Shown piece after piece: positions 34,266 to 57,666 of a stretch of 64,000 nt of DNA (position 1 is the first letter of the stretch; the number at the start of each line of letters is the position of its first letter). Source of the stretch: an uncultured Hyphomicrobiales bacterium (GTDB taxonomy: Bacteria > Pseudomonadota > Alphaproteobacteria > Rhizobiales > Beijerinckiaceae); NCBI GenBank assembly GCA_903931945.1, contig CAIZEI010000091.1:62001-126000 (forward strand), written 5' to 3'. The notes beneath the pieces were generated by a model. It saw only the letters and a list, made by a program, of their open reading frames with translations. It did not search any database and was not told where the DNA came from. Made by a program: the position numbers and the translations under genes.

Positions 34266-34755
34266 GGCGCAATCCCCTCAGCGCGGCCCCCTCAGCGCGA
34301 ATCCGGATCGTTAAAACGATCGCGTTCGCCACCGAGAATATCAAGGCGAACAACGGCAGTCCGAGGCACAACGGCAATGTAGCGATCTCGCCAATCACGA
34401 CGACATAGTTTGGATGTGAGAGAAAGCGGTAAGGTCCTTCGGTTATCAGAGGAGCGCCTGGCAATATGACGATGCGCGTCGTCCAGCGTTCTCCCAGGGA
34501 TTTCAGAACCCACAGCCGCAACCCCTGCAATGCGACAAAGACGGCAAGCCAGCCCCATTGGATGGGCTGGCTCCAGCCAAATATCCAAAGCCCCGCGAGC
34601 CAGGCCGTATGCACGGCCACAATCGCCGGATAGTGGCCCGCAGCAACTTCAAATGCGCCTCTGCCGATGAGCGCCGCTGTGTGACGACGGGCGATCCAGA
34701 GTTCAGCCAGCCGTTCCGCGGTGACAACGGCCAGCAATAGAGTCGCGAGGGTCAT
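34249..34755 (-). CDS. isoprenylcysteine carboxyl methyltransferase (ICMT)-family membrane methyltransferase
   Basis: This 168-residue membrane protein has four or five helices. The ICMT core (GAPLITEGPYRFLSHPNYVVVIGEIATLPL) and a terminal RIRAEGAAL supply the SAM-binding His, Asn and Glu. The start ATG 34755 forms an ATGA overlap with the stop of the type III polyketide synthase. In Streptomyces SrsB, this family O-methylates phenolic lipids made by the type III synthase SrsA, so the same job is likely here. Confidence 0.87.
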   Translation of the reverse strand: MTLATLLLAVVTAERLAELWIARRHTAALIGRGAFEVAAGHYPAIVAVHTAWLAGLWIFGWSQPIQWGWLAVFVALQGLRLWVLKSLGERWTTRIVILPGAPLITEGPYRFLSHPNYVVVIGEIATLPLCLGLPLFALIFSVANAIVLTIRIRAEGAALRGLRHAARQ

Positions 34756-35804: not shown

Positions 35805-36015
35805 TCCCGCCGGTTCCTTCACGCTGTCATTCTGACCCCCGGAGCCATTGTATCAGGCTCATATACGCTACGGCGGGAGGATCGGATCGCCAAATCATCC
35901 GCCCCAAAAATCGCGCCGCCAGGAAAAATGCGATTTGGGTGCGCGATCCTGATTTTTGAATTCGGAAAATGCCGTATCGACTGTATGGCGACAATACCCG
36001 CCGCACGACCGGCTT

Positions 36016-38536: not shown

Positions 38537-40165
38537 ATGGCGATCAGAAGACCGGTGGAACAAATTTCGAGCGCTGGCGCGCAGGAGTTTCGCGCCGACG
38601 TGCTTGTCCTCGGGGGCGGGCCGGCCGGAACCTGGGCGGCCATCAACGCGGCCGGCCGCGGGGCCAGCGTGCTTCTTGTCGACAAGGGCTTTTGCGGAAC
38701 GTCTGGCGCCACCGCTCCCTCTGGCACCGGCGTCTGGTACGTCGATCCCGACAGCGCCAAGCGAGAGGCCGCGATGGCCTCGCGCGAAGCGATGGGCGGC
38801 TTCCTTCAGGACCGGCGCTGGATGGCGCGGGTGCTGGATCACGCCTACGACACTGTCCAGCAACTGGCGGACTGGGGCTATCCCTTCCAGACCGACGAGT
38901 ACGGGTTGCAAAGATACGGATCCGTGATGGGTCCCCAATACATGCGTCTGATGCGCAAGCGGGCCAAGCAGGCTGGCGCCAAGATTCTCGATCACAGTCC
39001 GGCGCTCGAACTCATTGTCGATGACCGCGGCGCCGTTCGCGGCGCGTCAGGCATTCGGCAGCAATCGGGCGAGCGCTGGATTGTACGCTCGGGCGCCGTG
39101 GTGATGGCGACCGGCGGCTGCGCTTTTCTGAGCAAGGCGCTTGGATGCAACGTTCTCACCGGCGACGGCTACCTTATGGGCGCGGAGGTCGGCGCCGAGC
39201 TTTCAGGAATGGAATTCTCCAACGCCTACGCCATGTCGCCCGCGTTTTCATCCGTCACAAAGACGCGATTCTACGATTGGGCGACATTCACCGATGCATC
39301 CGGGGAGTTGATCCCCGGCGCGCAATCCAAGGGCGGGCGCTCGAACATCGCTCGCTGGCTGACGAACAACGGCGCGGTTTTCGCCCGGATCGACAAAGCG
39401 GACGCGCCGACGCAAGCCGCCATGCGGCTTGCGCAGCCCAATTTCTTCCTTCCCTTCGATCGCGCCGGTATCGATCCCTTCGCGCAACGCTTCCCGGTGA
39501 CGCTGCGCCTTGAAGGCACAGTGCGCGGCACCGGTGGATTGCGCATTGTCGACGACACCTGCGCGACCACAGTTCCAGGCCTTTATGCGGCCGGCGACGC
39601 GGCGACGCGGGAGTTGATCTGCGGCGGATTTACGGGCGGCGGCAGTCATAACGCCGCCTGGGCGATGTCCTCCGGGTTCTGGGCGGGCGGCGCAGCGGCC
39701 GATCACGCGCTGTCGGTCGGGGAGCCGCGACACGCCGCGCCCGTGAAGCATGCGGGCGGTGTGGCGCTCAGGGAGGGAGCGGAACGTCCCGTCGATTCCG
39801 GGGATTTGATCAAGTCCGTTCAGGCCGAGGTCTTCCCCTACGACATCAACTATTTCCGCAATGGCGAGAAGCTGTCGGGCGCGCTCAATCGGCTCGACAG
39901 CCTTTGGTCCGCGACATCGCGCGCCGGTCGATCCGATGCCTTGCGCGTCACGCGCGACCGCGAGGCGGTTTCGATGTTGGCGACAGCGCGCTGGATGTAC
40001 CGGAGCGCGCTCGAACGCAAGGAGAGCCGCGGCATGGCGCGGCGTCTGGATTATCCCGGTCAGGACTCAGGTCCCAAATACAACGTGCGCGTGGGCGGGC
40101 TCCATGAAGTCTGGAGCCGCCGCGACGCCAATCAACCAGCGCCGATTTTGGAGGCCGCAGAATGA
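38537..40165 (+). CDS. AprA-like FAD-dependent oxidoreductase (sulfur module 1)
   Basis: This 542-residue flavoprotein belongs to the fumarate reductase/adenylylsulfate reductase alpha superfamily. An N-terminal dinucleotide motif (VLVLGGGPAGTWAAINAAG) starts near residue 24. A second FAD contact is seen in TVPGLYAAGDAATRELICGGFTGGGS. The helical C-terminal part has RWMYRSALERKESRGMARRLDYP, which in AprA/SdhA proteins packs on the partner subunit. The ferredoxin gene overlaps its stop (ATGA). GGAGG precedes ATG 38537. With an SsuABC-type importer downstream, a role in reductive or oxidative release of sulfur from an imported organosulfur compound is inferred. Confidence 0.85.
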   Translation: MAIRRPVEQISSAGAQEFRADVLVLGGGPAGTWAAINAAGRGASVLLVDKGFCGTSGATAPSGTGVWYVDPDSAKREAAMASREAMGGFLQDRRWMARVLDHAYDTVQQLADWGYPFQTDEYGLQRYGSVMGPQYMRLMRKRAKQAGAKILDHSPALELIVDDRGAVRGASGIRQQSGERWIVRSGAVVMATGGCAFLSKALGCNVLTGDGYLMGAEVGAELSGMEFSNAYAMSPAFSSVTKTRFYDWATFTDASGELIPGAQSKGGRSNIARWLTNNGAVFARIDKADAPTQAAMRLAQPNFFLPFDRAGIDPFAQRFPVTLRLEGTVRGTGGLRIVDDTCATTVPGLYAAGDAATRELICGGFTGGGSHNAAWAMSSGFWAGGAAADHALSVGEPRHAAPVKHAGGVALREGAERPVDSGDLIKSVQAEVFPYDINYFRNGEKLSGALNRLDSLWSATSRAGRSDALRVTRDREAVSMLATARWMYRSALERKESRGMARRLDYPGQDSGPKYNVRVGGLHEVWSRRDANQPAPILEAAE

Positions 40166-40449
40166 TCGAGGTTATCGACGAAGAGCGTTGCACCGGCTGC
40201 AACATTTGCGTGCACGCCTGCCCGACCAATGTTTTCGACGCGGGCGCGAAAATTCCCGTCATCGCGCGGCAGGATGACTGCCAGACGTGTTTCATGTGCG
40301 AGGCGTGGTGCCCGGAGGACGCGCTCTATGTTTCGCCGCGCGCCGACGATCTGGAGCATCCCGATATCGCCGCGCTGAAATTCAACCACGTCATCGGCAG
40401 CTATCGTGCGGCGATCGGCTGGTCGAAAGGCGATGCGCCCACGATTTAA
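40162..40449 (+). CDS. AprB-like 2[4Fe-4S] ferredoxin (sulfur module 1)
   Basis: This 95-residue ferredoxin has Cys at 10, 13, 16, 20 and 40, 43, 46, 50, giving two CxxCxxCxxxCP motifs. After the clusters is the tail motif VIGSYRAAIGW, shared with the second ferredoxin at 51.0 kb. It overlaps the flavoprotein by four bases, so it should be that enzyme's electron-transfer subunit. The segment lacks the long C-terminal tail of dissimilatory AprB. Confidence 0.9.
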   Translation: MIEVIDEERCTGCNICVHACPTNVFDAGAKIPVIARQDDCQTCFMCEAWCPEDALYVSPRADDLEHPDIAALKFNHVIGSYRAAIGWSKGDAPTI

Positions 40450-40496
40450 TTCTTTCGCGCGCGGTTCACTGCAATGCGCTCAACCGGAATCCGATC

Positions 40497-41570
40497 ATGA
40501 ACAGAATCACCCGCCGCCATTCGCTTGGCGCACTGACGTCTGCTTTCGGCGTCCTCGCCATGCCCCAGCTCGCCCGCGCCGCCGAGCGGCCCCCCGCAAC
40601 CATTCGCATCGCCGGGCCCGGGAATGCCGCCGGCAAGCCCTACGGCAACAATGTGCTCGGCGTCCTGCGCGTCAAGGGTTTGCTTGAGGAAGAATTCAAG
40701 ACGGAAGGCGTGACAATTGACTGGCAGTTCCCGCGCGGAACTGGCCCCGCCATTAACGAAGCTTTCGCCAATGGCCAGCTGGATTTCTCGAATTATGGCG
40801 GCCTGCCGAACGTGGTTGGCCGCGGCGCGGGCTTGCGAACCAGAGCGCTGGCGTCAAACGGCCTGGCGCCCGTTTATATCGTTGCGCGCAAAGGCGCGAA
40901 ATTCGCGTCCGTCGCGGACTTGAAGGGCGCCCGGATTTCGGTGTCGCGCGGCACGATTTACGAATGGTCGCTCAATCGCATTCTCACGCCGGCGGGTCTG
41001 GCCGAGCGCGACGTCCAGATCTTCGACCTGCAAGCCGCCGATCAGATTTCCGCCATTGCGTCGGGAGATATTGACGCCATCCTCGCAGGCAACAACCTGC
41101 TCGAACTCGTCGATCGCGACATCGCAACCCTGGTCTATTCGACCAAGGGCACACGCGCCCCAGGCACCAACTTCGGCTCCTTCGTCGTCTACGAGGACTT
41201 CGCCAGGCGCTACCCCGAAACCACGCAACGCGTCGTCAATAGCTACATCCGCGCCGCCTATTTCGCTTCCCAGGAAGCCAACCGGCAGGAACTCTATGAC
41301 ATCTGGGCTCTGACCGGTGTGCCTCGCGCGGCGTTTGCCCGCGATTACGACGGCGATGACCTCGCCGACCGTCACTCGCCCCTCGCAGATGGTTTCTACC
41401 GCGCCAGCGTTCAGAGCGGGATCGACTTTTCGATCTCGAAAAAGCTCATCCGGGCGTCGTTCGATCCAACCCAATGGATCGACCAAAGCTTTCTCGACAG
41501 GGCGATCGATACCCTTGGCTATCGCCAGGTCTGGCGCGCCTATGACGCAGCCGGCAAACCGCAGAGTTGA
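40497..41570 (+). CDS. ABC transporter substrate-binding protein, SsuA/TauA-like (module 1)
   Basis: This 357-residue protein starts at ATG 40497. The N-terminus RITRRHSLGALTSAFGVLAMPQLARAA is a twin-arginine-like export signal, so it may be exported folded. The mature part has the NMT1/SsuA fold (GLLEEEFKTEGVTIDWQFP, NGQLDFSNYGGLP, DLKGARISVSRGT). It would capture a sulfonate-like ligand in the periplasm and deliver it to the two permeases that follow. The exact ligand is unknown. Confidence 0.88.
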   Translation: MNRITRRHSLGALTSAFGVLAMPQLARAAERPPATIRIAGPGNAAGKPYGNNVLGVLRVKGLLEEEFKTEGVTIDWQFPRGTGPAINEAFANGQLDFSNYGGLPNVVGRGAGLRTRALASNGLAPVYIVARKGAKFASVADLKGARISVSRGTIYEWSLNRILTPAGLAERDVQIFDLQAADQISAIASGDIDAILAGNNLLELVDRDIATLVYSTKGTRAPGTNFGSFVVYEDFARRYPETTQRVVNSYIRAAYFASQEANRQELYDIWALTGVPRAAFARDYDGDDLADRHSPLADGFYRASVQSGIDFSISKKLIRASFDPTQWIDQSFLDRAIDTLGYRQVWRAYDAAGKPQS

Positions 41571-41599
41571 TCGGGTCGATTGTCGGGAGCCAGACATCC

Positions 41600-42478
41600 A
41601 TGTCCATCGAGGTTCTATCAGACCAACGTATCGCCTCTTCCGGGACACTGAGGTTTGCGCGCGTCGCAGGTCGATCGTCCGCGCTGTTTTCACGCCGATG
41701 GATGAAGGTGTGGAAGGGAACCGCCATGGCGGCATTGCTCGGCCTGTCGCTGCCTGCGGCGATCCTGGCGATCTGGACCATTGCTGCGCGCATGGAACTG
41801 GTCGCGCCGCAAATTCTCCCTATGCCGTCGCTCGTTTGGGCAACGACATGGGATTTGACTGTCAGCGGCGATCTGCCGCGTGAACTCGCCGTGAGCCTCG
41901 CCCGGCTGGCGGGCGGGCTGCTGATTGGCGGCGCTCTTGGGCTTGCTTTCGGTCTCCTGTTCGGCCTGTCGCGCGCAAGCGAGGCCTATCTTGGACCGAC
42001 CTTGCGCGCGATCTTTCTCGTGCCCTCCCTTGGCTGGCTACCTTTCTTCATGATGATTTTCGGGATCGGCGAAACCCTGAAGTTCGTGCTCATCGCGAAG
42101 ACGTGCTTCCTGCCTCTGATGGTCAACGTCAGCGGCGCGATCCAGACGCTGCCCGCGAAATACCATGATGTCACGCGTTGCCTTGAACTCTCCCGCCAAG
42201 AGAGATTGCGATATGTGATCATCCCCTCGGTCATCCCCGCGATCGCGATCGGATTGCGGCAAGCCATCGCCAAGGGTTGGAAGACGCTCATTCTCGTCGA
42301 GATGATCTCGTCGGCGGCGGGGATTGGCTACCTCATGATGTGGGGACGCAAATCCTTCCAGCTCGATGTGGTCTTCGCGACAATGATTGTAATAGCCCTC
42401 GTGGGTCTTCTTTTCGATCGTGCGGTTCTGGCGCTTCAGCAGCGGACAGCGGATTGGTCGCTGCACACCGGAGGCTGA
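41600..42478 (+). CDS. ABC transporter permease, SsuC-like (module 1, first permease)
   Basis: The protein has 292 residues with about six helices. ATG 41600 has GGGAG nine bases upstream, whereas TTG 41567 would overlap the previous stop. The EAA-loop region (VSGAIQTLPAKYHDVTRCLELSRQERLRYVIIPSVIPAI) docks on the ATPase. Sulfonate importers usually have one permease acting as a homodimer. Here a second, different permease follows after three bases. Confidence 0.88.
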   Translation: MSIEVLSDQRIASSGTLRFARVAGRSSALFSRRWMKVWKGTAMAALLGLSLPAAILAIWTIAARMELVAPQILPMPSLVWATTWDLTVSGDLPRELAVSLARLAGGLLIGGALGLAFGLLFGLSRASEAYLGPTLRAIFLVPSLGWLPFFMMIFGIGETLKFVLIAKTCFLPLMVNVSGAIQTLPAKYHDVTRCLELSRQERLRYVIIPSVIPAIAIGLRQAIAKGWKTLILVEMISSAAGIGYLMMWGRKSFQLDVVFATMIVIALVGLLFDRAVLALQQRTADWSLHTGG

Positions 42479-42481
42479 TCG

Positions 42482-43270
42482 ATGAATTGGGCGATCGCAT
42501 CGCGCCTGGACTTGAGGCCGTGGCTGGCGCCCATCGCGCTTGCCGCAGTGTGGGCGATCACAACATCGGGAGAGCATGGCGCAAACCCGCAGTTGATCGC
42601 TTCGCCAGTCTCGTTCATTGCTGCGTTGCTGCAAGGCCTGCGCGATGGTTCGCTGCCCGGCGCCATCCTTTCCACGCTTGCGCGCGCGATCACGGGATTT
42701 TTTATCGGCACGATTCTCGGCTTCAGCGTCGGGATTGTGATCGGTTTGTGGCGACGCCCGCGCCTCATCATAAGCCCGACGGTGGACGCCCTGCGGCAGG
42801 TCGCTTTGTTCGCCTGGATCCCTCTGCTCAGCGCCTGGCTCGGCAACGGCGAGGCAATGAAAATAACACTCATCGCGCTTGGCGCGTTTTTTCCCGTCGC
42901 GCTTGCCACTGCCGCTGGTTGCGCCAATGCGCCTTTGCCTTTTCTGGAGGTGGGGAGAGCACTTGAACTCGGTCGCCGCGTTCAGGTGACGAAAATCGTT
43001 CTGCCCGCCGCTGCGCCGGATATTGTCGCCGGTCTCGAGCTATCCCTGAACATTGCCTGGCTTGGCACGATTGGCGCGGAGTATTTGATCGGCACTGGCT
43101 ATATCAACGGCATGGGCGATGGCGTGGGCGCCTATCTCGCTGCGGCGCGCGAGCACGCGCGCATGGATCATGTGCTCGTCGGCGTACTCGCGCTCGCGAT
43201 CATAGGCCTCGCGCTTGACCGCTCGGTCGCGCTTCTCTCCCGGAGATTGTTTCCTTGGCAGTCGCGTTAG
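42482..43270 (+). CDS. ABC transporter permease, SsuC-like (module 1, second permease)
   Basis: This 262-residue protein has about six helices. CGGAGG precedes ATG 42482. The EAA-loop region is ATAAGCANAPLPFLEVGRALELGRRVQVTKIVLPAAAPDI. It probably pairs with the preceding permease as a heterodimer. Its end overlaps the ATPase start by 16 bases. Confidence 0.9.
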   Translation: MNWAIASRLDLRPWLAPIALAAVWAITTSGEHGANPQLIASPVSFIAALLQGLRDGSLPGAILSTLARAITGFFIGTILGFSVGIVIGLWRRPRLIISPTVDALRQVALFAWIPLLSAWLGNGEAMKITLIALGAFFPVALATAAGCANAPLPFLEVGRALELGRRVQVTKIVLPAAAPDIVAGLELSLNIAWLGTIGAEYLIGTGYINGMGDGVGAYLAAAREHARMDHVLVGVLALAIIGLALDRSVALLSRRLFPWQSR

Positions 43271-44058
43271 AAAGCATCTCCGTCACCGGCACGAGCGTCG
43301 AGATATCAGGCGTATCGCGGGTGTTTCGCGTCGATGGGCGCGAGGTCAACGCATTGCGCGACGTGTCGCTCACCGTGCGGCCGGGCGAGTTTGTCAGCCT
43401 TCTGGGTCCAAGCGGCTGCGGAAAATCGACCATGCTGCGCATTATTGCCGGCCTCGATCGCCCCGATGCGGGCGAATGCGTGGTCGATGGCGCGATCGTG
43501 CGAGCGCCAAGTCTCTCCCGCGGCGTCGTGTTTCAGGATCACCGCCTTCTCCCATGGCTGACCGTGCGGGAAAACGTTCTGCTGGCCCTGCACAAAGCCC
43601 CGATCGGGCAGGACGGCAGGGAGGCGCGCGTTCTCGAACTTCTCGATCTCGTGGGGCTTTCCGCATTTGCCGGCGCGAAACCGCATCAACTCTCGGGCGG
43701 CATGTCCCAACGCGCGGCGATCGCGCGAGCGCTCGCGCCGCGTCCGCGGTTGTTGTTGCTCGACGAACCCCTGGGCGCCCTCGACTCGCTGACGCGAAGC
43801 CGCCTGCAAGGCGAGCTTCTGAGACTCTGGGAACACGAAAAGGTCACGGTCATCATGGTCACGCATGACGTCGAAGAAGCCGTTTATCTGTCCAACCGCG
43901 TCTTCGTGATGGAGCCAAGGCCGGGCCGGGTGCGGGGGATATTTGACGTTTCGATTCCCTATCCGCGCCGCCGCGTCGACGCTGATTTTGTGGCTCTAAG
44001 ACAGTCCATTCTCGACATTCTGGAGCGGGAAGCGACCGCTGCCGAATTGACGTGTTGA
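43255..44058 (+). CDS. ABC transporter ATPase, SsuB-like (module 1)
   Basis: The 267-residue ATPase has Walker A LLGPSGCGKST, a Q-loop in VVFQDHRLLPW, the signature LSGGMSQRAAIARAL, Walker B LLLLDEPLGALD and the switch histidine in MVTHDVEEA. The start is TTG 43255, with GGAG upstream, and it overlaps the second permease. It energises import by the two preceding permeases. It is the last gene of module 1, and a 198-base gap follows. Confidence 0.93.
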   Translation: MAVALESISVTGTSVEISGVSRVFRVDGREVNALRDVSLTVRPGEFVSLLGPSGCGKSTMLRIIAGLDRPDAGECVVDGAIVRAPSLSRGVVFQDHRLLPWLTVRENVLLALHKAPIGQDGREARVLELLDLVGLSAFAGAKPHQLSGGMSQRAAIARALAPRPRLLLLDEPLGALDSLTRSRLQGELLRLWEHEKVTVIMVTHDVEEAVYLSNRVFVMEPRPGRVRGIFDVSIPYPRRRVDADFVALRQSILDILEREATAAELTC

Positions 44059-44227
44059 TCGCCCCTGGGACGCTCGGGAGAGTGAAACATTTTTTGGTCG
44101 CGCGCCTGCTTCGCCGGGGATCCATCGCCTTTTTGAGCGTGATTGCAGCGTTTGATTTGGAAGGCGGTTTCATCTTCTGCCCAGCCAGCAGAATGGCTTG
44201 ACTCCTATCATCAACTCAAGTAAGTCT

Positions 44228-44247
44228 ATTAAATAAGTATTTTTAAT
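44228..44247. promoter_or_regulatory. AT-rich dyad before sulfur module 2
   Basis: ATTAAA and TTTAAT form a six-base inverted repeat with an eight-base spacer, ten bases before the permease ATG at 44257. A TTGACT hexamer at 44198-44203 could be a -35 box. Like the dyad at 38503, it lies just before the first gene of a sulfur module. Overlapping it, ATTTAATAGACT on the minus strand resembles ATTTACATAGACT at 38505. Confidence 0.4.
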
Positions 44248-44256
44248 GGTCTTATC

Positions 44257-45003
44257 ATGTTTCGTCACGGATTCACGCTCCTCTTTCTGCTCGCCGCCTG
44301 GCAACTGGGAGCGGGATTTGGCGCGACGGCCTATTACCTGAGCACGCCAGTGCAGGTCGCCGACCGCCTGCTTGAATGGAGCATGTCCGGGTACGTCTGG
44401 CCGCATCTGTTGTCGACAATTGAATGTTCGCTGGCGGGCTTTGGCGTGGCGGCCTTTGTCGGAACCTTGTTCGCATTGGCCATGGCAAGCAGTCCGTCCT
44501 TTGCGAGGCTGCTGGAACCCGCGTTGTTCGCCGCCTTCTCAACCCCCAAGATCGTCATCGCCCCGTTGCTTATCCTCTGGATCGGCGTTGGAACTTTGCC
44601 GGTAATCGCCCTTTCAGCGCTATCGAGCTTCTTCGTGATCTTCTACGGATCTTATGGCGGATTGCGCGATGTTTCGGGGAGCTACATCGATACGGCGGCC
44701 GTGCTCGGCGCGGGTTATTGGACAACCGCTTTCCAGTTTCGCCTTCCCGCAGCCGGGCCCTACATTCTTGCGAGCCTGACGCAGGGGCTCATCTACGCGT
44801 TCCATGGCGCAATTCTCGGCGAGATGACCGCGTCGGACACTGGAATGGGCTATCTGATTGTTTACAGCGCCACGAGCATGGACGCGGCGTCCGTTCTTGC
44901 GGCGCTCGCCGTTATTGGCGCCGTCACCTTCGGCCTCCTTCATCTGCTCGCCAGTGCGACACGAGCGCTGGCGGCGCCCCTGAACGCCGAGGCTCTGGCA
45001 TGA
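44257..45003 (+). CDS. ABC transporter permease, SsuC-like (module 2, first permease)
   Basis: This 248-residue protein has about six helices. The coupling loop reads YGGLRDVSGSYIDTAAVLGAGYWTTAFQFRLPAAGPYIL. There is no strong ribosome site, only an AT-rich leader with a dyad, before ATG 44257. The ATPase gene overlaps its stop by ATGA. It opens the second importer set. Confidence 0.87.
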   Translation: MFRHGFTLLFLLAAWQLGAGFGATAYYLSTPVQVADRLLEWSMSGYVWPHLLSTIECSLAGFGVAAFVGTLFALAMASSPSFARLLEPALFAAFSTPKIVIAPLLILWIGVGTLPVIALSALSSFFVIFYGSYGGLRDVSGSYIDTAAVLGAGYWTTAFQFRLPAAGPYILASLTQGLIYAFHGAILGEMTASDTGMGYLIVYSATSMDAASVLAALAVIGAVTFGLLHLLASATRALAAPLNAEALA

Positions 45004-45827
45004 ACATCCAGGCGTCCCACTCAACTGGCGTATTCGATGTCGAGCCTGGACGCGCGCCAGTTCTGTCATTCCAGGGCGTATCGAAATCGTTCAGCCACGA
45101 GAATCGTTCGACGCCAGCGATCGAGACAATCAATCTCGACATCGCGCGGGGCGAGTTTGTCGCATTTCTGGGGCCGTCTGGATGCGGCAAAACAACTTTG
45201 CTGAATCTTGCAGCAGGCCTCATCAAACCGGACAACGGAGCGGTTCTCCGCGACGGCGAGCCCTTGCGGGGGCCAAATACCCGGGTCGGCTATCTCACGC
45301 AATCGGATGCTTTGCTCCCCTGGCGGACAGTGATTGCCAATGTCACCTTGCCGCTGGAGATCAGGCGTATTCCCCGTGTTGAACGGCAAGCTCGCGCCAT
45401 GGCCATGCTCGAACGGGTTGGGCTCGGCGCGTTCGCGCGCCACCTTCCGGGGCAGTTGAGCGGCGGCATGCGCAAGCGGGCGGCGCTGGCGCGAACGCTG
45501 GTTTACGATCCCAAGACGCTTCTGCTGGATGAGCCCTTCAGCGCACTCGACGCGCAGGCGCGTCTCGCGATGCAACGTCAGTTGCGCGAACTCGTCGATG
45601 AACTCGGGCTTACAGTCCTGCTGGTGACGCACGATCTCAACGAAGCCATCGCGCTGGCGGACCGCATCGTCGTGTTCTCGAAACGGCCGGCCCGTGTTCT
45701 GGAGGATATCGATATCAGGCACGACCCATCCATCTTGCGCCAACGCCGGACGTCGCTCGACGGCTCCCTTCATGATCGGCTTTGGTCTCTCCTGGAAAAC
45801 GAACTGGAAGCTGGAGCCCTCCGATGA
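45000..45827 (+). CDS. ABC transporter ATPase, SsuB-like (module 2)
   Basis: The 275-residue ATPase has Walker A FLGPSGCGKTT, a Q-loop in GYLTQSDALLPW, the signature LSGGMRKRAALART, Walker B LLLDEPFSALD and the switch His in VTHDLNEA. Both ends overlap the neighbouring genes by four bases (ATGA), so the permease-ATPase-permease trio is translationally coupled. It powers the second importer. Confidence 0.93.
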   Translation: MNIQASHSTGVFDVEPGRAPVLSFQGVSKSFSHENRSTPAIETINLDIARGEFVAFLGPSGCGKTTLLNLAAGLIKPDNGAVLRDGEPLRGPNTRVGYLTQSDALLPWRTVIANVTLPLEIRRIPRVERQARAMAMLERVGLGAFARHLPGQLSGGMRKRAALARTLVYDPKTLLLDEPFSALDAQARLAMQRQLRELVDELGLTVLLVTHDLNEAIALADRIVVFSKRPARVLEDIDIRHDPSILRQRRTSLDGSLHDRLWSLLENELEAGALR

Positions 45828-46606
45828 GCGCTATCGTGGCGAGCCCGTCGTTCCATGTGTCGCCGTCCTTGCGACTGGGCATTGGCCGGTTTCTCCTGCT
45901 TGCTGCGGTTCTTGCAGTCTGGCAGTTCGCGCCGGCTTACACACTGATCGATTCGCTGATCAGCCGGCCAACGCTTGTCGCCGAGCGCATTTTTCAGTGG
46001 ATCGCCAATGGATTGCTGATCCGGGAATCCATCGCGACGCTGTCGTCCGTGATTTTCGGGCTTTTCTTCGGTGGCGTTGCTGGCAGCTTTTTGGGTCTTG
46101 TCGCCGGATTCTGGCGACCGGTGGGCGCCATTGTCGAACCCTGGCTCACGGGGTTGTTCGCCCTGCCCAAGAGCGCGTTCATTCCGTTGTTCATCCTGTG
46201 GTTTGGAATCAGCGGACGCCAGCATGTCCTGTTTGTTGCGACCGTCGTATTCTTCTTCTTCTTTTTCGCCATGTTCAACGGCGCCCGCAACGTGCCTGCA
46301 TCATGGCGAAACCTGCTGGCGCTGTCCGGCGCAAACGCCTTCCAGTCAATTAGAATTTTGTATATTCCAGCGAGCTTTGGCTGGCTTTTGGCCGCCATGC
46401 GACTGGCCATTCCGCACGCCTTCGTCGCTGCGATCAGCATCGAAGTCATCGCCTCGCGCGACGGGCTTGGGCACCTCGTCAAAACAAGTTCCGCCGTTCT
46501 GGACGCGACCGGAACCGTCGCCGCCGTTGCATGGCTTGTCGCGCTATCCACGACGCTTGGCGCGACGTCAATCAAACTGGCTGAAAGCGCAAGGTGGAAC
46601 AAATGA
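45824..46606 (+). CDS. ABC transporter permease, SsuC-like (module 2, second permease)
   Basis: This 260-residue protein has about six helices, including an unusually phenylalanine-rich one (ATVVFFFFFFAMFNGARNVP). The coupling loop LLALSGANAFQSIRILYIPASFGWLL binds the ATPase. ATG 45824 overlaps the ATPase stop. It probably forms a heterodimeric pore with the permease at 44257. Confidence 0.88.
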   Translation: MSAIVASPSFHVSPSLRLGIGRFLLLAAVLAVWQFAPAYTLIDSLISRPTLVAERIFQWIANGLLIRESIATLSSVIFGLFFGGVAGSFLGLVAGFWRPVGAIVEPWLTGLFALPKSAFIPLFILWFGISGRQHVLFVATVVFFFFFFAMFNGARNVPASWRNLLALSGANAFQSIRILYIPASFGWLLAAMRLAIPHAFVAAISIEVIASRDGLGHLVKTSSAVLDATGTVAAVAWLVALSTTLGATSIKLAESARWNK

Positions 46607-47640
46607 AATCGTCTTTTCGTACATCGATGGCCCGAGCCTCGACGACATTTGTGCGTCTGGGCCTCGCCTGCGCACTCGTCAGCGCCCCGGCGCGCGGAGC
46701 GGAGCGATTGCAGATCGCGACCTCGGCAGGCGGGTCGAGCGCGATCGCGGCGGCTGTCGCCAAACAACTCGGGTATTTCGAGGCCGAAGGCCTGGAAACC
46801 ACGCTCTTCGACTCCGGCGGTGGGAACAATGCTGTTTCGACAGTCGTCAATGGCGAGGCGCAGATCGGCATTGTCGGCATCCGAAACGCCTCGAAACCAG
46901 TTGAAAAAGGCATGGACCTAAAACTGATCGGCGTCGATACGAACGCGCTGACGCAATATATTTTCGTTCGCTCGAACCTGTTCGATCCCGCCAATGCGCC
47001 GCGAACCCTGGCGGAAAAAGGCGCGCTTTTACGTGGCAAGAAAATCGCCGTCAATGATATCGGCGGCTCGTCGGGCGAATTCGCGCGATACACGCTCGCC
47101 GCAGCGGGGCTTGGCGAACGCGAGGCCACAATCCTCAATATCAATTCGGCGGCGGCTCGCTTGACCGCGCTGAAGGCGGGTCGGATCGACGCGATCGTCG
47201 GCTCCGCTCCCGAGCCGGAGACGGCCATCACCGAAGGATATGGACGAATTCTGGTCGATCCTGTGAAGGACGTCCCGGAAATCAGCGACATCGCATCGAC
47301 GGTTCAACTGGTCAGAGCCGATTATCTGGCGACGCACGCAACGATTCTGCATCGCTATCTCGTTGCGCTCGACAAGGCGCGGCAGCTTGTCAGGACAGAG
47401 CCCGAAAAAGCAAAAGCGGCCTATTACGATTACATGCGGGTTGAAGCCAATGGCGTCGAGTTGGCGCCCGTCGTCAAGGATTTGGCCTGGGCGAGCGTCG
47501 TTTCCGCGACGGCGCCGTCACCGATCCTGTCCGTCGGCGAATACGAACGCGCGCAACAGTTTTTCAAGATTCCCGGAACGGTGAGTTACGAAAAGTTCGT
47601 CGATAACGCGCTCGCCCGCAGCGTCTTTCCCGCAGAATGA
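46603..47640 (+). CDS. ABC transporter substrate-binding protein, SsuA/NMT1-like (module 2)
   Basis: The 345-residue protein starts at ATG 46603, overlapping the permease stop, with AAGGTGGA upstream. The signal peptide ends near APARGA. The mature start RLQIATSAGGSSAIAAAVAKQLGYFEAEGLETTLFDSGGG and NGEAQIGIVG are typical of the family. It differs clearly from the module 1 binding protein, so the two importers should take different ligands. Confidence 0.88.
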   Translation: MKSSFRTSMARASTTFVRLGLACALVSAPARGAERLQIATSAGGSSAIAAAVAKQLGYFEAEGLETTLFDSGGGNNAVSTVVNGEAQIGIVGIRNASKPVEKGMDLKLIGVDTNALTQYIFVRSNLFDPANAPRTLAEKGALLRGKKIAVNDIGGSSGEFARYTLAAAGLGEREATILNINSAAARLTALKAGRIDAIVGSAPEPETAITEGYGRILVDPVKDVPEISDIASTVQLVRADYLATHATILHRYLVALDKARQLVRTEPEKAKAAYYDYMRVEANGVELAPVVKDLAWASVVSATAPSPILSVGEYERAQQFFKIPGTVSYEKFVDNALARSVFPAE

Positions 47641-47704
47641 ACCACCGCGAGCCAACCCCATTCCTGAATTTGTCAAAGACCGGGCGAACCGACCGAAAGG
47701 ATAA

Positions 47705-49282
47705 ATGATGACCGCTCATCCCATTCAGTGGAATATCGAAACGGACGTCGTTGTTGTTGGCGCGGGCGGCGCGGGCCTTGTCACCGCGATCAACGCGCAT
47801 GACGCCGGCGCGCAAGTTCTCGTGCTGGAAAAAATGCCGAATATCGGCGGCATCACCATCCTTGCCGGCGGCGGCGTCAAGGCGGTCAGGGAGGTTGAGC
47901 CCGCGATCCAGTATCTGACCCGGACGCAGGGAGGCCGCGTTTCTCAGGACCTGATCGAAACTTTCGCGCGAGGCCTCAAGGAAATTCCCGACTATCTGCG
48001 TGAGCTGGCCGAGGTCAGCCATGCGACGGTTGAGGTCATCGACGAAGGCCATTCCGGAATCTACGACTTCCCTGGCCGCGAGACCATCATTTCGCTTCGC
48101 GTCACGGATATTCCTGGTTTCTCGGGCTATGACTGGACCTACACAGGCAAAAATCTTTACGGTCAGCGGTTCTTCAAGGTTCTGCTTGATAACGTCGAGA
48201 TGCGTGCGATTCCGATCCTGACAAACGCACCCGCCCGGACGTTGATAACCGATGGCGACGGCGCGGTCATTGGTCTTTGGGCCGATGTCAACAATGTTCG
48301 CACTTCGATCAAAGCCCGCAAGGGAGTCGTGCTCGCGTCGGGCGGGTTTGAATTCAACGAAAAGATGAAAAAGGAGTTTTTCGAGGCGACGCCGATCTTC
48401 TCGATGGGAAATCCGGGCAACACCGGCGACGGCATTCTCATGGCGCAGAAGGCCGGGGCGGCTCTCTGGCACATGTGGCATTATCACGGATCCTACGGAT
48501 TCAAATTCGACGATTATGATGCGGCTTTCCGCATTTCTCCGAGCGGCGCGCGTCACGACAAGCGGCCGATCTCCTGGGTATTGCTGGATCGCGACGGCAA
48601 GCGGTTCATGAACGAGTTGCATCCCGCCTGCCAGGACACAGCGGGCAGGCCGTTAGGCTATTTCGATCCCGACATTGCTGAGTATCCCAGAATACCCGCC
48701 TTGATGATTTTCGACGAAGCGGGACGGAAAATCGGGCGCATCGCAAATCCCCTCACATCGCATCCAGAGCATCGCTACGTCTGGAGCGAGGATAATTCAG
48801 CGGAAATCGATCGTGGCTGGATCAGGCGCTACGGCTCCATCGAAGACCTGGCGCGCGCCGAGCAATTGCCTTTGACCGCCGTGAGCGAAAGCCTCGCCCG
48901 CTGGAATGAGGGCGTAAGCAAAGGACAGGATTTGGACTTCCGCCGGCCGCCAGGCACAATGGTTCCGATTGGGGAGCCCCCATTTTATGTCGTGCCGGTT
49001 TGGCCGATCCTGACCAACACGCAGGGCGGCCCGGAACACGATAGCCAGCAGCGGGTTCTCGATTCCTTCGGCGCGCCAATTCCACGCCTGTACGCTGCGG
49101 GTGAATGCGGCTCGTTTTTCGCGCATCTTTACCTTTTGGGCGGGAACCTCAGCGAACTTCTGATTAGCGGTCGCATTGCGGGAAAGCATGCAGCTTCACT
49201 GATTCAATGGGATGAGAACGCCGACGCAGGTTTTGCATTGCAGAGCGCAAGGGAATCGCGCGCGCTCACTGCTGCAGAATAG
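47705..49282 (+). CDS. FAD-binding fumarate-reductase-like flavoprotein
   Basis: This 525-residue protein has the N-terminal FAD motif VVVVGAGGAGLVTAINAHDAGAQVLVLEK. The C-terminal FAD/substrate region has TNTQGGPEHDSQQRVLD and RLYAAGECGSFFAHLYLLGGNLSELLISGRIAG. This is the flavocytochrome c/KstD-type FAD_binding_2 family, distinct from the two AprA-like proteins. There is no signal peptide. It sits between the module 2 binding protein and the AprA-like gene, so it probably acts on the same imported compound. Confidence 0.86.
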   Translation: MMTAHPIQWNIETDVVVVGAGGAGLVTAINAHDAGAQVLVLEKMPNIGGITILAGGGVKAVREVEPAIQYLTRTQGGRVSQDLIETFARGLKEIPDYLRELAEVSHATVEVIDEGHSGIYDFPGRETIISLRVTDIPGFSGYDWTYTGKNLYGQRFFKVLLDNVEMRAIPILTNAPARTLITDGDGAVIGLWADVNNVRTSIKARKGVVLASGGFEFNEKMKKEFFEATPIFSMGNPGNTGDGILMAQKAGAALWHMWHYHGSYGFKFDDYDAAFRISPSGARHDKRPISWVLLDRDGKRFMNELHPACQDTAGRPLGYFDPDIAEYPRIPALMIFDEAGRKIGRIANPLTSHPEHRYVWSEDNSAEIDRGWIRRYGSIEDLARAEQLPLTAVSESLARWNEGVSKGQDLDFRRPPGTMVPIGEPPFYVVPVWPILTNTQGGPEHDSQQRVLDSFGAPIPRLYAAGECGSFFAHLYLLGGNLSELLISGRIAGKHAASLIQWDENADAGFALQSARESRALTAAE

Positions 49283-49359
49283 GCATCCGGCTCTGGCGCG
49301 CGGGCCAGGTCACGAGACAGCTCGATATTTTCATACACTTGAAAAGAAGGAAATCAACG

Positions 49360-51000
49360 ATGACGCACGATCATTCCGGATACGGCGGAAGTGAATTTGA
49401 TATCGATCTTTCAACCGACGTGCTTGTTATTGGCGGCGGACCCGCAGGCGTTTGGGCCGCGCTTTCCGCCATCGATGATGGCTCGACAGTCGTTGTCGTC
49501 GAGAAAGGCTATGTCGGAACTTCAGGCCCCTTCGGCGTCGGCGCGAACACGGGCATCTACTACATCATGCCAAACGATCGCGAGCAGCGCGATGCGATTG
49601 TCGCAGCCAGGCAACCGATCGCTTTTGGGCTTTCGGATCCCGCGTGGGGCTATCGCGTATTCGATCAAAGCTACGCCAACCTCGACGCCATGGCCAAATG
49701 GGGATTCGAATGGCCGCGCAACAGCGGGGGCAAGGAGGACCGGGGCAGCCTTCGCGGACCGACTATCATGGCCTTTTTACGCTCGGTGTTGCTGAAGAAG
49801 GGCGGCATCGTGCTCGATCACTCGCCCGCTCTTGAGCTTCTCAAAAGCGATGGCGCAGCTGCTGGCGCGCGCGGCGTCAACAAGCAGACCGGCCAGACCT
49901 GGCAGGTGCGCGCAGGCTCGGTGGTGATCGCGACAGGCGGAACAGCGTTCCTGTCGGGTATCGTTGGCGACAGGACGCATACCGGCGACGGCTATTTGCT
50001 GGCGGCGGAAGCTGGCGCCGATTTCTCGGGGATGGAATTCACCGGGCAGTACCATGCCGCGCCACTCGAGACGAACCTTACCCGTGGCGCCTATCGGTCC
50101 GGGGTTGGAACCTATTATGACAATAACGGCAAGCCGACTCTGGAAGGCCGTCAACTCGTTCAGGCGCTGCTTGAAACGGGCGGCGCATGGGATCAACTCG
50201 ACAAGACCAACGATCCCGTCACACAGGATCTCATCCGCAAGACGCATGCACTTTGTTTCCAGTATTTCGAGCGAAAGGGCATCGATCCCTTCCGGCAACG
50301 CTACCCAATTAACTTCGTTCTCGAAGGCACCATGCGTGCGGGCGGCGGCATCGCGATCGACGATGATTTGCAGACGAGGGTTCCTGGCCTCTTCGCGGCG
50401 GGGGACGTCACCAGCCGCGAGAAGCTCGTTGGCGCCGGACCTCCGGGTGGTGGACCGGCCTCGGCCTGGGCCTTCGCAACCGGGCATATCGCGGGGCGTT
50501 CCGCCTCGGCCTTTTCCAAATCGGCGAGAGGCCGTGGCGGCGTTCGCGCAGTGACAGGCGCAGGGCGGATTGGTATCGAGACCGTCGCAAAGCCACGTGT
50601 CACGACGGAAGAGGTGCTTCGGGTTGTCAAGGAGGAGATACATCCGCTTGAGAAGAACTACTGGCGAACGGGCGCTGGCATGCAACGCTCTATCGAACGG
50701 TTTGAAAGCCTCTGGCGCGATGTTGCGACCGGCCTGGGACCTGTTTCTCAAGGCGACGCCAAATCGACGGCGCGCGAGCGGCTGAAGACGCGCGAAGCCG
50801 CTGCGCTGCTGGCTACAGGACGCTGGATCTACGCCTCTGCGAATGAGCGCACGGAATCGCGCGGACTGCACCGCCGGAAGGACTTTCCGGATATGGACCC
50901 GGGACAGGACGGCCAGCACATTTTGAGCGGTGGGCTTGATACGGTGTGGTTGCGGCGCACGCCTCATGTCAACACGCTGACAAACTCACAAGGGACCTGA
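49360..51000 (+). CDS. AprA-like FAD-dependent oxidoreductase (sulfur module 2)
   Basis: This 546-residue protein is a paralogue of the product at 38.5 kb. Shared features are the FAD motif VLVIGGGPAGVWAALSAID, KGYVGTSGPFG, THTGDGYLLAAEAGADFSGMEF, VPGLFAAGDVTSREKL and the C-terminal RWIYASANERTESRGLHRRKDFP. ATG 49360 is preceded by AAGGAAA. An in-frame ATG 49339 adds seven residues. The ferredoxin starts two bases after its stop. It is probably the catalytic subunit of a flavin/iron-sulfur redox pair for an organosulfur substrate. Confidence 0.86.
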   Translation: MTHDHSGYGGSEFDIDLSTDVLVIGGGPAGVWAALSAIDDGSTVVVVEKGYVGTSGPFGVGANTGIYYIMPNDREQRDAIVAARQPIAFGLSDPAWGYRVFDQSYANLDAMAKWGFEWPRNSGGKEDRGSLRGPTIMAFLRSVLLKKGGIVLDHSPALELLKSDGAAAGARGVNKQTGQTWQVRAGSVVIATGGTAFLSGIVGDRTHTGDGYLLAAEAGADFSGMEFTGQYHAAPLETNLTRGAYRSGVGTYYDNNGKPTLEGRQLVQALLETGGAWDQLDKTNDPVTQDLIRKTHALCFQYFERKGIDPFRQRYPINFVLEGTMRAGGGIAIDDDLQTRVPGLFAAGDVTSREKLVGAGPPGGGPASAWAFATGHIAGRSASAFSKSARGRGGVRAVTGAGRIGIETVAKPRVTTEEVLRVVKEEIHPLEKNYWRTGAGMQRSIERFESLWRDVATGLGPVSQGDAKSTARERLKTREAAALLATGRWIYASANERTESRGLHRRKDFPDMDPGQDGQHILSGGLDTVWLRRTPHVNTLTNSQGT

Positions 51001-51001
51001 C

Positions 51002-51403
51002 ATGATCGAGTTTATTGACGAAACGTCTTGCACCGCGTGTGGAAAATGCGTCGAAATCTGCCCGACGGACGTGTTCGATCTTGCCAGCGCGTCCGCGATC
51101 ATCGCTCACAAGGAGGATTGCACGAGTTGCATGAACTGCGAGCTGTATTGCCCGCATGACGCGATCTACGTCTCTCCACTGAAAGACCCTGAGGTGGGCC
51201 TCGATCGGTCAGCTATCATCGCCTCGGGCGTCATGGGTAGTTACCGGAAGGCATTGCATTGGGCCGATGGCCGGGGGCCGTCGGGAACAGGCGACAACTG
51301 GGCTCTTCAACTACGCGAGCGGCAGGGCGAGAGACCGCCGCCGCCGAGCGACAAGATCAGGACCCAACTCTACAGCGTTCGCGACCGGAATCTGATCGGC
51401 TGA
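51002..51403 (+). CDS. AprB-like 2[4Fe-4S] ferredoxin (sulfur module 2)
   Basis: The 133-residue protein has eight cysteines at 10, 13, 16, 20, 40, 43, 46 and 50, exactly as in the module 1 ferredoxin, and the same tail motif (VMGSYRKALHW). A 40-residue extension follows (NWALQLRERQGERPPPPSDK, ending RNLIG), absent from module 1 and possibly binding its flavoprotein. AGGGACC precedes ATG 51002. Confidence 0.9.
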   Translation: MIEFIDETSCTACGKCVEICPTDVFDLASASAIIAHKEDCTSCMNCELYCPHDAIYVSPLKDPEVGLDRSAIIASGVMGSYRKALHWADGRGPSGTGDNWALQLRERQGERPPPPSDKIRTQLYSVRDRNLIG

Positions 51404-51583
51404 TCGTGAGCATCACAGTGGTGGCCTGAGATTTTTTTGGGGCGCATGCCGGCTGTCTGAAGCAGTCAGGCAAGGCCGGCGTTCGCCCGATGACGCCAAA
51501 GCGCCGCGCGCCGGTTGACCCGCAAGAAATATATTCCTTTTCTTATCGGGATACTCAGCTTACATCGCTGGCGGAGGCAGTCG

Positions 51584-52060
51584 ATGATATCCCAACGTTC
51601 CCGCTATGCGCTGAAGGCCCTGATCTCTCTTGCCCGTCTCGGCAGGGGCGAGGCGCGCTCGACCCGGCTCATCGCCGCCGACGAGGGGATACCCAGCGCC
51701 TTTCTTGAGCAGATCATGATCGACCTGAAGCGCGCTGGCTTCATCGCCAGCCGCCGTGGCAAGGAGGGGGGCTATTTCCTCGACAAGGACCCGTCAGAAT
51801 TGTCGTTGGCGACAATCATGCGCCACGTTGATGGGCCGGTGGCGCCGTTGCCGTGCCTGTCGCGCACGGCCTACCGGCGCTGTGAGGATTGCGCCGAAGA
51901 GGCAAGTTGCGCCCTGCGCGCCATTCTCAGCGAAACCTACGAGGCCGCGCTGGCCGTTCTGGAAAAACGCACCCTCGGGGAAGCGCTCGCGCGGGCCGAC
52001 CTCGAGTTCAGCGAACAGGGAAAATTCGGCCCGGATGTTTTCATGGGCGCGTTTATCTGA
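51584..52060 (+). CDS. Rrf2 family transcriptional regulator with four-cysteine motif
   Basis: This 158-residue protein starts at ATG 51584 behind GCGGAGG. The winged helix-turn-helix is MISQRSRYALKALISLARLG, then AADEGIPSAFLEQIMIDLKRAGFIASRRGKEGGYFL. Cys91, 100, 103 and 109 form a C-x8-C-x2-C-x5-C cluster. In IscR/NsrR relatives three such cysteines hold an iron-sulfur cluster. It lies between module 2 and cysPTWA on the same strand and is the obvious candidate regulator of the island. AT-rich dyads stand before both modules. Confidence 0.88.
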   Translation: MISQRSRYALKALISLARLGRGEARSTRLIAADEGIPSAFLEQIMIDLKRAGFIASRRGKEGGYFLDKDPSELSLATIMRHVDGPVAPLPCLSRTAYRRCEDCAEEASCALRAILSETYEAALAVLEKRTLGEALARADLEFSEQGKFGPDVFMGAFI

Positions 52061-52171
52061 CAGCCAACATACTGAAATATATTGAAAATATGATGATTAT
52101 GAAAATTGCTCGGCTTGGGGGTTGCATTTCTAATCAAAACAGTCAGAATTATATGAATTGAGGAGAGCCCC

Positions 52172-53209
52172 ATGGCCGAGCGCGTATTCAGAAACCTTGT
52201 GAACCCTGCATTGGCCGCTGGAGCCTTTGCAGTCTCCCTTTTGACGGTCGTATGCGCCCTCGCGGAAACCTCTCTCCTGAACGTCTCCTATGACCCCACC
52301 CGCGAACTCTATAAGGCGATCAACGCGGCGTTTGAGGCGGATTGGGCGAAGCAGACGGGTGAGAAAATCTCGATCCGGGCTTCGCATGGCGGTTCGGGCG
52401 CGCAGGCCCGCGCAGTCATCGACGGTCTCAAGGCTGATGTTGTGACGCTGGCGCTGGCGCCCGACATCGACGCTATCGCCGCCCAGACGGGCAGGATCGC
52501 GAGGGACTGGCAGACCCGCCTCCCCAATCATTCCTCACCGTGCACATCGACGATTGTGCTGCTGGTGCGCAAGGGCAACCCGAAAGGCGTCAAAGACTGG
52601 GACGATCTCGCCAGGCCCGGCGTTTCCGTCGTCACACCCAACCCGAAGACATCCGGCGGCGCTCGCTGGAACTATCTGGCGGCCTGGGGCTATGCGAACG
52701 CCAAATTCAAGGGCGACGAACAGAAAATCAGGGACTTCGTCGCGGCTATTTATCGCAACGCGCCCGTGCTCGACTCCGGCGCGCGCGGATCGACGGTCAC
52801 TTTCGCCCAACGCGGCATCGGCGATGTCCTGATCGCCTGGGAAAACGAGGCGTTCCTCGCCTTCGAGGAGTTCGGAAAGGACAAGTTCGAAATCATTTCG
52901 CCGTCGCTTTCAATTCTCGCCGAGCCGCCCGTCGCGGTCGTCGACGCCAATGTTGACGCCGACGGCAATCGCAAGGCGGCTGAAGCCTATCTGAAATTCC
53001 TCTACACACCCGCTGCGCAGAAAATCATTGCGAAAAACTACTATCGCCCGATTGACGAGGCCGCAGCGGATCCGGCGGACATCGCGCGCCTGCCGAAGCT
53101 GAACCTGCTGACAATCGACAAGGATTTTGGTGGCTGGGACGTCGCCAACAAGTCGCATTTTTCTGATGGTGGAACCTTCGACCAGATCTACGATCCGGGC
53201 AAGAAGTGA
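52172..53209 (+). CDS. cysP: sulfate/thiosulfate ABC transporter substrate-binding protein
   Basis: This 345-residue protein has a signal peptide (to about residue 31, CALA) followed by the sulfate-binding family hallmarks [57 protein letters not shown] and YRPID near the C-terminus. GAGGAGAG precedes ATG 52172. It captures sulfate or thiosulfate in the periplasm. Its GTGA stop overlaps the first permease. The 111-base leader is AT-rich. Confidence 0.93.
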
Positions 53210-54048
53210 ACGCGCCGGCGACTTTCGTTCGACCCTCGCCATTGCCCGGTTTCGGGCCGGCGCTCGGAGCAACGCTGCTGTGGCTGGGATTGCTCGTGCT
53301 AATCCCGCTCGCCGCGCTTGTCTGGCGCGCCTCCGGCCTTGGCCTGTCAGGCATTCTCGCCATTGCGTCCCAACCCCGCGTCGCAGCCGCGTTGCGCCTC
53401 TCGTTCGGCCTGTCGCTACTGGCGGCGGCGTTGAATGTTATTCTTGGAGGAATCGTCGCCTGGGTCCTGACGCGCTACGAATTCCCGGGCCGACGCCTTC
53501 TCGACGCGGCGGTTGATCTTCCTTTCGCGCTTCCGACGGCGGTCGCTGGCATCGCGCTGACTGCGGTCTACGCCCGGAATGGCTGGATTGGCGGCTTCTT
53601 CGATCGCTTCGGCGTCAAGATCGCCTTCACGCCGCTCGGCATTTTTATCGCGCTCGTTTTCATCGGCCTGCCGTTCATGGTGCGCAGCGTCGAGCCGGTG
53701 CTGGCGGAAATCGATCCAGAGATAGAAGAGGCCTCCGCGACGCTCGGAGCATCGCGGCTGACTACCATCTTTCGGGTCGTGCTGCCGCCGCTCACCACCG
53801 CTTTCGTGACCGGCTTCGCGCTGTCATTGGCTCGCGCCGTCGGAGAATATGGCTCCGTCGTCTTTATCTCCGGCAACATACCGTTTGTTTCGGAAATCGC
53901 TCCGCTGCTCATATTCGTACGCCTGGCGGAATACGACACAGCGGGCGCGACGGCGGTAGCGACCATCATGCTGGCGCTTTCTTTTGCGATGCTGCTCCTC
54001 ATCAACCTCGCACAATCCTGGGCGCGGCGGAGGACGGGCAATGGCTGA
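53206..54048 (+). CDS. cysT: sulfate ABC transporter permease CysT
   Basis: This 280-residue protein has six helices ([18 protein letters not shown] first). The coupling loop [34 protein letters not shown] and [17 protein letters not shown] are CysT/CysU signatures. The start is GTG 53206, inside the cysP stop. It partners CysW. Confidence 0.93.
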
Positions 54049-54919: not shown

Positions 54920-54924
54920 GAGAT

Positions 54925-57661: not shown

Positions 57662-57666
57662 CGCCC

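Follow-up and report, generated by a model that had tools for sequence, protein, structure and literature searches.

The DNA considered here, referred to as the window, is a stretch of 64,000 nucleotides from a contig (CAIZEI010000091.1) of an uncultured Hyphomicrobiales bacterium (assembly GCA_903931945.1). Within the window, 18 consecutive genes, all on the + strand, span positions 38537-56004, as judged by open reading frame (ORF) calls and Pfam matches. Taken as a whole, with a probability of roughly 0.75, this island is best explained as a sulfur-starvation locus, in which two sulfonate-scavenging modules of the asf type, each with a flavoprotein (AsfA), a ferredoxin (AsfB) and an ATP-binding cassette (ABC) importer, are combined with a sulfate importer. 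The genes are given below; L with a number denotes a locus from another genome or plasmid used for comparison, and CH34 is Cupriavidus metallidurans CH34.

38537-40165, + strand: AsfA-1, flavin adenine dinucleotide (FAD) flavoprotein of the fumarate-reductase superfamily (FAD_binding_2)
40162-40449, + strand: AsfB-1, ferredoxin for two [4Fe-4S] clusters with a GSYR..W motif (Fer4_7)
40497-41570, + strand: SsuA-family binding protein 1 (NMT1); 129.5 bits to TIGR01728, cut-off of 163.5 not reached
41567-42478, + strand: importer 1 permease a (BPD_transp_1, Pfam); 62% and 61% identity to L056 and L083, respectively
42482-43270, + strand: importer 1 permease b (BPD_transp_1, Pfam); 62% identity to L056 and L083
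43255-44058, + strand: importer 1 ATPase (Pfam); 65-66% identity to L056 and L083
44257-45003, + strand: importer 2 permease a (Pfam)
about 45000-45827, + strand: importer 2 ATPase (Pfam)
45782-46606, + strand: importer 2 permease b (Pfam)
46594-47640, + strand: importer 2 binding protein (NMT1 family, orphan); 69.5 bits to TIGR01728, below the cut-off
47705-49282, + strand: second flavoprotein (FAD_binding_2), flavocytochrome c/ketosteroid dehydrogenase-like by Pfam and curated models
49360-51000, + strand: AsfA-2, a divergent AsfA; 40% identity to AsfA of the CH34 locus
51002-51403, + strand: AsfB-2 ferredoxin; 39% identity to AsfB of the CH34 locus
51515-52060, + strand: Rrf2-family regulator, candidate regulator of the island (PF02082 and TIGR00738, both above cut-off)
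52172-56004, + strand: sulfate importer, with binding protein, CysT, CysW and CysA (sulfate-family models)

Neighbouring genes within a module overlap or are at most 80 bases apart, and the two modules are separated by 198 bases. The genes of AsfA-1 and AsfB-1 overlap by 4 bases, and one base lies between those of AsfA-2 and AsfB-2. An earlier reading of the letters alone (the original prediction) had given a gene order for each module, and both orders are upheld by the ORFs on the + strand and by a Pfam match for each gene. It had also spoken of a sulfur island, and this is backed by the sulfate importer, which forms the directly downstream part of the island and whose binding protein, CysT and CysW are above the sulfate-family cut-offs; its ATPase is barely above TIGR00968 and below the CysA equivalog cut-off.

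By sequence comparison, both flavoprotein/ferredoxin pairs are homologues of AsfA/AsfB of the arylsulfonate desulfurization family, since identity to the asf locus on replicon 2 of CH34 is 59% for both subunits of pair 1 and 40% (AsfA-2) and 39% (AsfB-2) for pair 2, and since searches with AsfA-1 and with AsfB-2 at E 1e-5 hit the replicon at this locus alone. The CH34 locus served as the asf reference in place of the sequence of Pseudomonas putida S-313 itself. In the CH34 genome paper, a reductase-ferredoxin pair is named AsfA/AsfB (Rmet_4334/5; PMC2864759). The link between the matched locus and these tags is indirect: the replicon has six TauD places and the paper six TauD tags, and the two sets were paired by order, the place at 10 kb receiving the highest tag, which gives even spacing. 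Interpolation then puts the CH34 AsfA match at about tag 4338, compared with the published Rmet_4334/5, and four landmarks re-estimated by the same interpolation were off by 3-11 tags.

Closer relatives exist elsewhere. AsfA-1 is 66% identical to an Azospirillum homologue, AsfB-2 is 50% identical to AsfB of Rhizobium daejeonense, and a tblastn search with AsfA-1 matched 111 plasmid and megaplasmid records, with an identity of 60-80% in 21 of these. The two AsfA proteins share 39% identity, and AsfA-2 scores 357 bits against AsfA-1, compared with 48 bits for the next flavoprotein in the same genome. A possible third AsfB copy at C85:77234 was rejected, as its sequence resembles that of an ordinary ferredoxin, presumably of the FdxA type and next to what we take to be an S4-domain-like ORF, and not that of an asf protein.

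Eight cysteines occur at positions 10, 13, 16, 20, 40, 43, 46 and 50 in AsfB-1 and AsfB-2 alike, and both carry GSYRxAxxW, as had been noticed from the letters. Among relatives, GxxRx4W is present in 102 of 111 AsfB-type ORFs and GSYRx4W in 84; GxxRx4W and the eight cysteines occur together in 101, and three of the remaining 10 are weak matches (33-34 bits) that are probably not AsfB. A control for the specificity of the motif, in which a single other ORF had the cysteine pattern and lacked the motif, is too small to count.

Co-conservation of the flavoprotein, ferredoxin and importer across genomes, with sulfur neighbours, agrees with the proposed role in organosulfur uptake and redox. The best 80 of at least 535 confirmed loci, ranked by similarity to AsfA-1, were compared; they are not independent because they come mostly from Bradyrhizobium and cyanobacteria. 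AsfB is found anywhere in the locus in 74 of the 80 and directly after AsfA in 65. Counted, like the rest, per locus and not per operon, a binding protein is present in 74, an ATPase in 64, a permease in 51 and all three in 46; unrelated ABC genes can be caught by the models for ATPase and permease. Luciferase-family (LLM), TauD or SfnB genes occur in 58/80 loci, as detected by seed models built from 2-3 proteins each (the Rrf2 and Cys models from one each). Seventeen further loci, including two overlapping stretches of one genome (L145, L146), have AsfB in 17/17, a full importer in 16/17 and LLM, TauD or SfnB in 7/17.

LLM neighbours were found in 12 of 20 loci, compared with 1.36 expected from the LLM density of each genome or record (P about 4e-11 if the loci were independent, which they are not). 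This control set was chosen by us, from 16 of the 80 loci (mainly long contigs) and four of five plasmid loci, and takes its densities from PF00296 and its locus counts from the LLM seed model. At least two AsfB occur in 8/80 loci, so several asf pairs per locus are found elsewhere as well. Rrf2 genes near asf also occur in L056 and L154, at 37% identity to that of the window, and single-seed CysT/CysW/CysA models match genes in asf loci L144, L148 and L149, although other ABC families may be caught by these models. Overall the family is sporadic: the AsfA profile at E 1e-40 matches 12 of 398 sampled genomes of the phylum, own genome included, and none of the 12 same-family genomes listed. Loci with AsfA/AsfB and LLM, TauD or SfnB are frequent in Nostoc, Anabaena and relatives (among L043-L107), and in Azospirillum (L010:18774-21522) a few genes separate the asf locus from a gene annotated as family 2A encapsulin and from that of its cysteine desulfurase cargo.

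Each importer has two non-identical permeases, as the original prediction stated, and this arrangement is also found in other asf loci. The two permeases of one importer share 27-29% identity. The module 1 order AsfA-AsfB-binding protein-permease-permease-ATPase is found again in L046, L083, L152 and L155, and in L056 with two binding proteins. The best-matching binding protein, both permeases and the ATPase of L056 and L083 are 55-66% identical to those of module 1 (binding protein 1: 60% and 55%, respectively; the other binding protein of L056: 53%). Not counting the window, 11 of 102 loci have paired permeases when overlapping frames are corrected for, and 2 loci by a strict count; in L153 and L064 the permease pair does not adjoin AsfAB. 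Module 1, two permeases included, is a conserved unit that recurs elsewhere.

The importers share NMT1/SsuA-family binding proteins, BPD_transp_1 permeases and ATPases of the same family with SsuABC and TauABC, but differ from these in the two non-identical permeases and in falling below the equivalog cut-offs for SsuC, TauC and the Ssu/Tau ATPases. The SsuC model gives 143 and 104 bits for the importer 1 permeases, compared with a cut-off of 347, and is not listed at E 1e-20 for those of importer 2; the taurine ATPase model gives 214 and 208 bits, compared with 357.

By its sequences, module 2 is a divergent variant and not a duplicate of module 1, since the permeases and binding proteins of the importers are distant from each other and the two AsfA are far apart in the tree. 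Between the importers, the permeases are 26-32% identical and the ATPases 42%, and the binding proteins do not match each other at E 1e-3. In the tree, AsfA-2 is far from AsfA-1 and joins a single long-branched sequence from the asf locus L145, which also has genes for an importer, LLM and SfnB; long branches make the exact place unsure. Therefore, the view that the island holds a duplicated and diverged system did not hold up, and a recent tandem duplication of the whole module was rejected from the tree positions of AsfA and the importer identities. The best identity of AsfA-2 among 297 sampled genomes of its order is 47%; at E 1e-60 it matches 11 of these, own genome included, and none of the 11 same-family genomes listed.

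Permease a of importer 2 shares 27-32% identity with its best listed counterparts in a set of 109 permeases, and permease b 26-30% with those listed from outside the window; for permeases and binding protein together the range to the best listed outside matches is 20-32%, and for the ATPase 44-52%. In a sample of 385 genomes of its class, the binding protein matches nothing at E 1e-30 in the 384 other than its own, and its best-ranked plasmid match is at 31.6%. These low identities of permeases and binding protein and the orphan character of the latter, together with the second flavoprotein, whose nearest curated models are those of flavocytochrome c/ketosteroid dehydrogenase, would fit a chance neighbourhood, in which only module 1 is a sulfonate module and the importer and second flavoprotein of module 2 belong to an unrelated catabolic operon (e.g. 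for an organic acid or a steroid-like compound) beside a second asfAB. Such an arrangement is rather unlikely, however, as the genes are closely spaced into asfA-2 (64 and 77 bases), and as the nearest plasmid relatives of the second flavoprotein (42-43%) sit beside TauD in L161 and beside two LLM enzymes in L162 (Shinella), where rhodanese and TauE follow further on. An ABC permease annotated for iron is also near the relatives in both loci. Judged by these neighbours, the evidence favours a sulfur role for the second flavoprotein.

Under the sulfur-starvation reading, the following scheme would accommodate the observed family membership, gene order, neighbour enrichment, adjoining sulfate importer and many oxygenase genes. 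Each module would import an organosulfonate through its Ssu-type ABC importer with two different permeases, the substrate of module 1 probably being an aromatic sulfonate. The pair of AsfA (FAD) and AsfB (two [4Fe-4S]) would hand on electrons to support C-S bond cleavage, which flavin-dependent monooxygenases or TauD-type dioxygenases from other parts of the genome may carry out, and the sulfite set free would pass into cysteine synthesis. The Rrf2 protein would take the place of the LysR regulator of classical asf clusters, and the extra flavoprotein of module 2 may modify the substrate before or after cleavage.

The genome (5.0 Mb) is rich in sulfonate- and xenobiotic-type oxygenases, with 49 luciferase-family (PF00296) and 12 TauD matches outside the window; two of the TauD matches, on C153, overlap and hold stops. 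Of the genomes and records used in the density control, 20 in all, G402 alone reaches this PF00296 count, with 53 matches in 4.8 Mb. An SsuD-type frame above the curated cut-off is found at C171:27109-28149 (L124), near frames that, from their translation, encode a binding protein, a permease and an ATPase.

Several observations weigh against the sulfur-starvation reading. There is no LLM (PF00296) or TauD (PF02668) match within the window, and the rest of the contig has a single LLM match, at a distance of about 40 kb from the window. The SsuD-type frame, the only one above the cut-off, holds one in-frame TAG, and no SsuE reaches the cut-off in the genome. By the seed models, 22 of the 80 related loci and 10 of the 17 further loci are without LLM, TauD or SfnB nearby. 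In AsfA, Pfam gives only partial Pyr_redox_2 matches and no separate NAD(P)H domain was recognised, which makes it a poor fit to an NAD(P)H-ferredoxin reductase of the simple kind. None of the asf loci compared holds a close relative of the permeases or the binding protein of importer 2, and the substrate of this importer is therefore a guess. Finally, no LysR (PF00126) match is found on contig C91, and the cluster thus has no AsfR. Since the only LysR found at the CH34 locus, where not all ORFs were scanned, is about 9.7 kb upstream of asfA, LysR adjacency may not be a defining feature of the asf family. A single-sequence LysR search gave LysR-like ORFs in 4 of 103 sources but missed the LysR of L009 found by Pfam, and it was not used.

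From the lack of recognisable SsuD/SsuE or TauD, the original prediction had concluded that the sulfur-releasing chemistry may be new. The lack of SsuD and TauD is confirmed for the window, and the missing SsuE and the interrupted SsuD of the genome speak in part for this conclusion. New chemistry is not implied, however, because the genome encodes many such oxygenases elsewhere, and because asf works besides ssu in published descriptions: according to PMC4267179, asfRABC is required besides ssu for aromatic desulfonation, and transposon mutants of P. putida S-313 in asfA lose the use of aromatic sulfonates and keep that of aliphatic ones; the requirement besides ssu is also stated in PMC10441942.

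Whether AsfAB only passes on electrons was considered from its fold. Sequence and fold searches place AsfA among fumarate reductase, succinate dehydrogenase, phosphoadenylylsulfate (PAPS) reductase and adenylylsulfate (APS) reductase, with structure models of moderate quality (mean predicted local distance difference test, pLDDT, of 73.9 for AsfA-1 and 66.1 for AsfA-2). Members of this superfamily exchange electrons with the substrate at the flavin. Given these fold neighbours, this chemistry and the absence of an NAD(P)H domain, AsfAB may act on the substrate itself. It would then be the sulfur-releasing or substrate-activating enzyme, with reduced FAD fed by two iron-sulfur clusters as in PAPS and APS reductases, and the nearby oxygenases would serve other sulfonates. 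In Foldseek, the alpha subunit of PAPS reductase (8a8o) ranks 4 for AsfA-1 and 1 for AsfA-2, and APS reductase (1jnr) ranks 28 and 13. The AsfB profile matches the beta subunit (8a8o_C), though about 30 other ferredoxin-type chains outscore it. In the HMMER alignment, the His and Arg positions of fumarate reductase, which we take to be active-site residues, are Glu and Thr in the AsfA profile, with a three-residue insertion after the Glu; E-G-T-x-R-x-x-G-G is present in AsfA-1, AsfA-2 and the CH34 protein. PAPS reductase is described as a flavin/ferredoxin enzyme of the alpha-beta type, for which an N5-sulfur mechanism has been proposed.

However, the fold does not tell these enzymes apart, because fumarate reductase and succinate dehydrogenase score as well as or better than PAPS reductase in the sequence search and in the fold searches with either model. 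Moreover, AsfAB is presented in PMC4267179 as transferring electrons during oxygenation, and in PMC2864759 as part of a possible electron chain. A direct role of AsfAB is considered improbable, about one chance in a handful. A more specific form of it is more doubtful still: AsfAB would not supply an oxygenase with electrons but would itself cleave the C-S bond of sulfonates, reductively or through an N5 adduct, as a flavin/iron-sulfur enzyme related to PAPS reductase. The island would then hold two such enzymes that differ in substrate, and a dehydrogenase coupled to the second would make an otherwise inert sulfonate ready for it. That the pairs are true APS reductases of sulfate or sulfite metabolism is rejected as very improbable, because the weak profile similarity (60 and 52 bits to AprA for AsfA-1 and AsfA-2; 28 bits to AprB for AsfB-2, AprB being absent from the 25 best models listed for AsfB-1) is far from the curated cut-offs of 557 and 135.65 bits, TfrA/fumarate reductase models outscore AprA, and related loci often neighbour Ssu-type importers and oxygenases.

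Of the AprA-like/AprB-like label in the original prediction, the resemblance at superfamily level therefore stands and membership in AprA/AprB does not, no curated cut-off being reached among the matches listed. AprAB and the PAPS reductase of M. thermolithotrophicus (8a8o) share with the pairs a FAD subunit of the fumarate reductase superfamily and a two-cluster ferredoxin subunit; the pairs differ from them in the scores given above, in an identity of 15-20% in the Foldseek alignments listed, and in having importers and oxygenases as neighbours. The flavoprotein of fumarate reductase/succinate dehydrogenase is the best or near-best PDB match of AsfA by sequence and fold. AsfA differs from it in the Glu and Thr, noted above, at the presumed active-site His and Arg positions, and no genes for membrane subunits are among its neighbours; TfrA gives 115.6 and 109.7 bits, compared with a cut-off of 718, which places AsfA outside fumarate reductase/succinate dehydrogenase.

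The island is mostly explained by the known asf system, from which the two-permease form and module 2 set it apart as a variant. With asfRABC of P. putida S-313 and asfRAB of CH34, both modules share AsfA with adjoining AsfB, a nearby binding protein and ABC importer, and a sulfonate context. They differ from these clusters in the two permeases per importer and in the Rrf2 gene downstream with no LysR on the contig, and module 2 differs further from the CH34 locus in its AsfA-2/AsfB-2 (39-40%), extra flavoprotein and distant importer.

The biochemistry of AsfAB is worth settling, because sulfonates are described as a large share of soil sulfur, asfA is used as a marker gene for aromatic sulfonate use (PMC9694294), and the fold is hard to reconcile with that of a plain NAD(P)H-ferredoxin reductase. 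In the literature searched, which did not extend to subscription papers, no study of purified AsfA was recognised. Two divergent pairs and two distant importers in one organism offer a natural comparison of substrate ranges. Homologues of asfA are frequent here in Bradyrhizobium, Azospirillum and cyanobacteria, which are not among the genera listed for asfA in the accessible part of PMC9694294; the clones of that study, as described there, matched Rhizobiales by BLAST.

Outside the island, the window holds further features. An 888-residue protein with a caspase domain (PF00656) is encoded at 7108-9774 (-). A type III polyketide synthase, an ICMT-type methyltransferase and an MFS transporter lie together at 32703-35822 (-), presumably resembling a phenolic lipid or pyrone cluster. 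The large subunit of a molybdopterin hydroxylase with an adjoining [2Fe-2S] subunit is found at 58259-61193 (-), and a second large-subunit gene at 21693-24056 (+). At 57374-58074 (+), a MazE-like antitoxin gene is followed by an ORF that is PIN-like on reading its sequence, and the two are likely a toxin-antitoxin pair.

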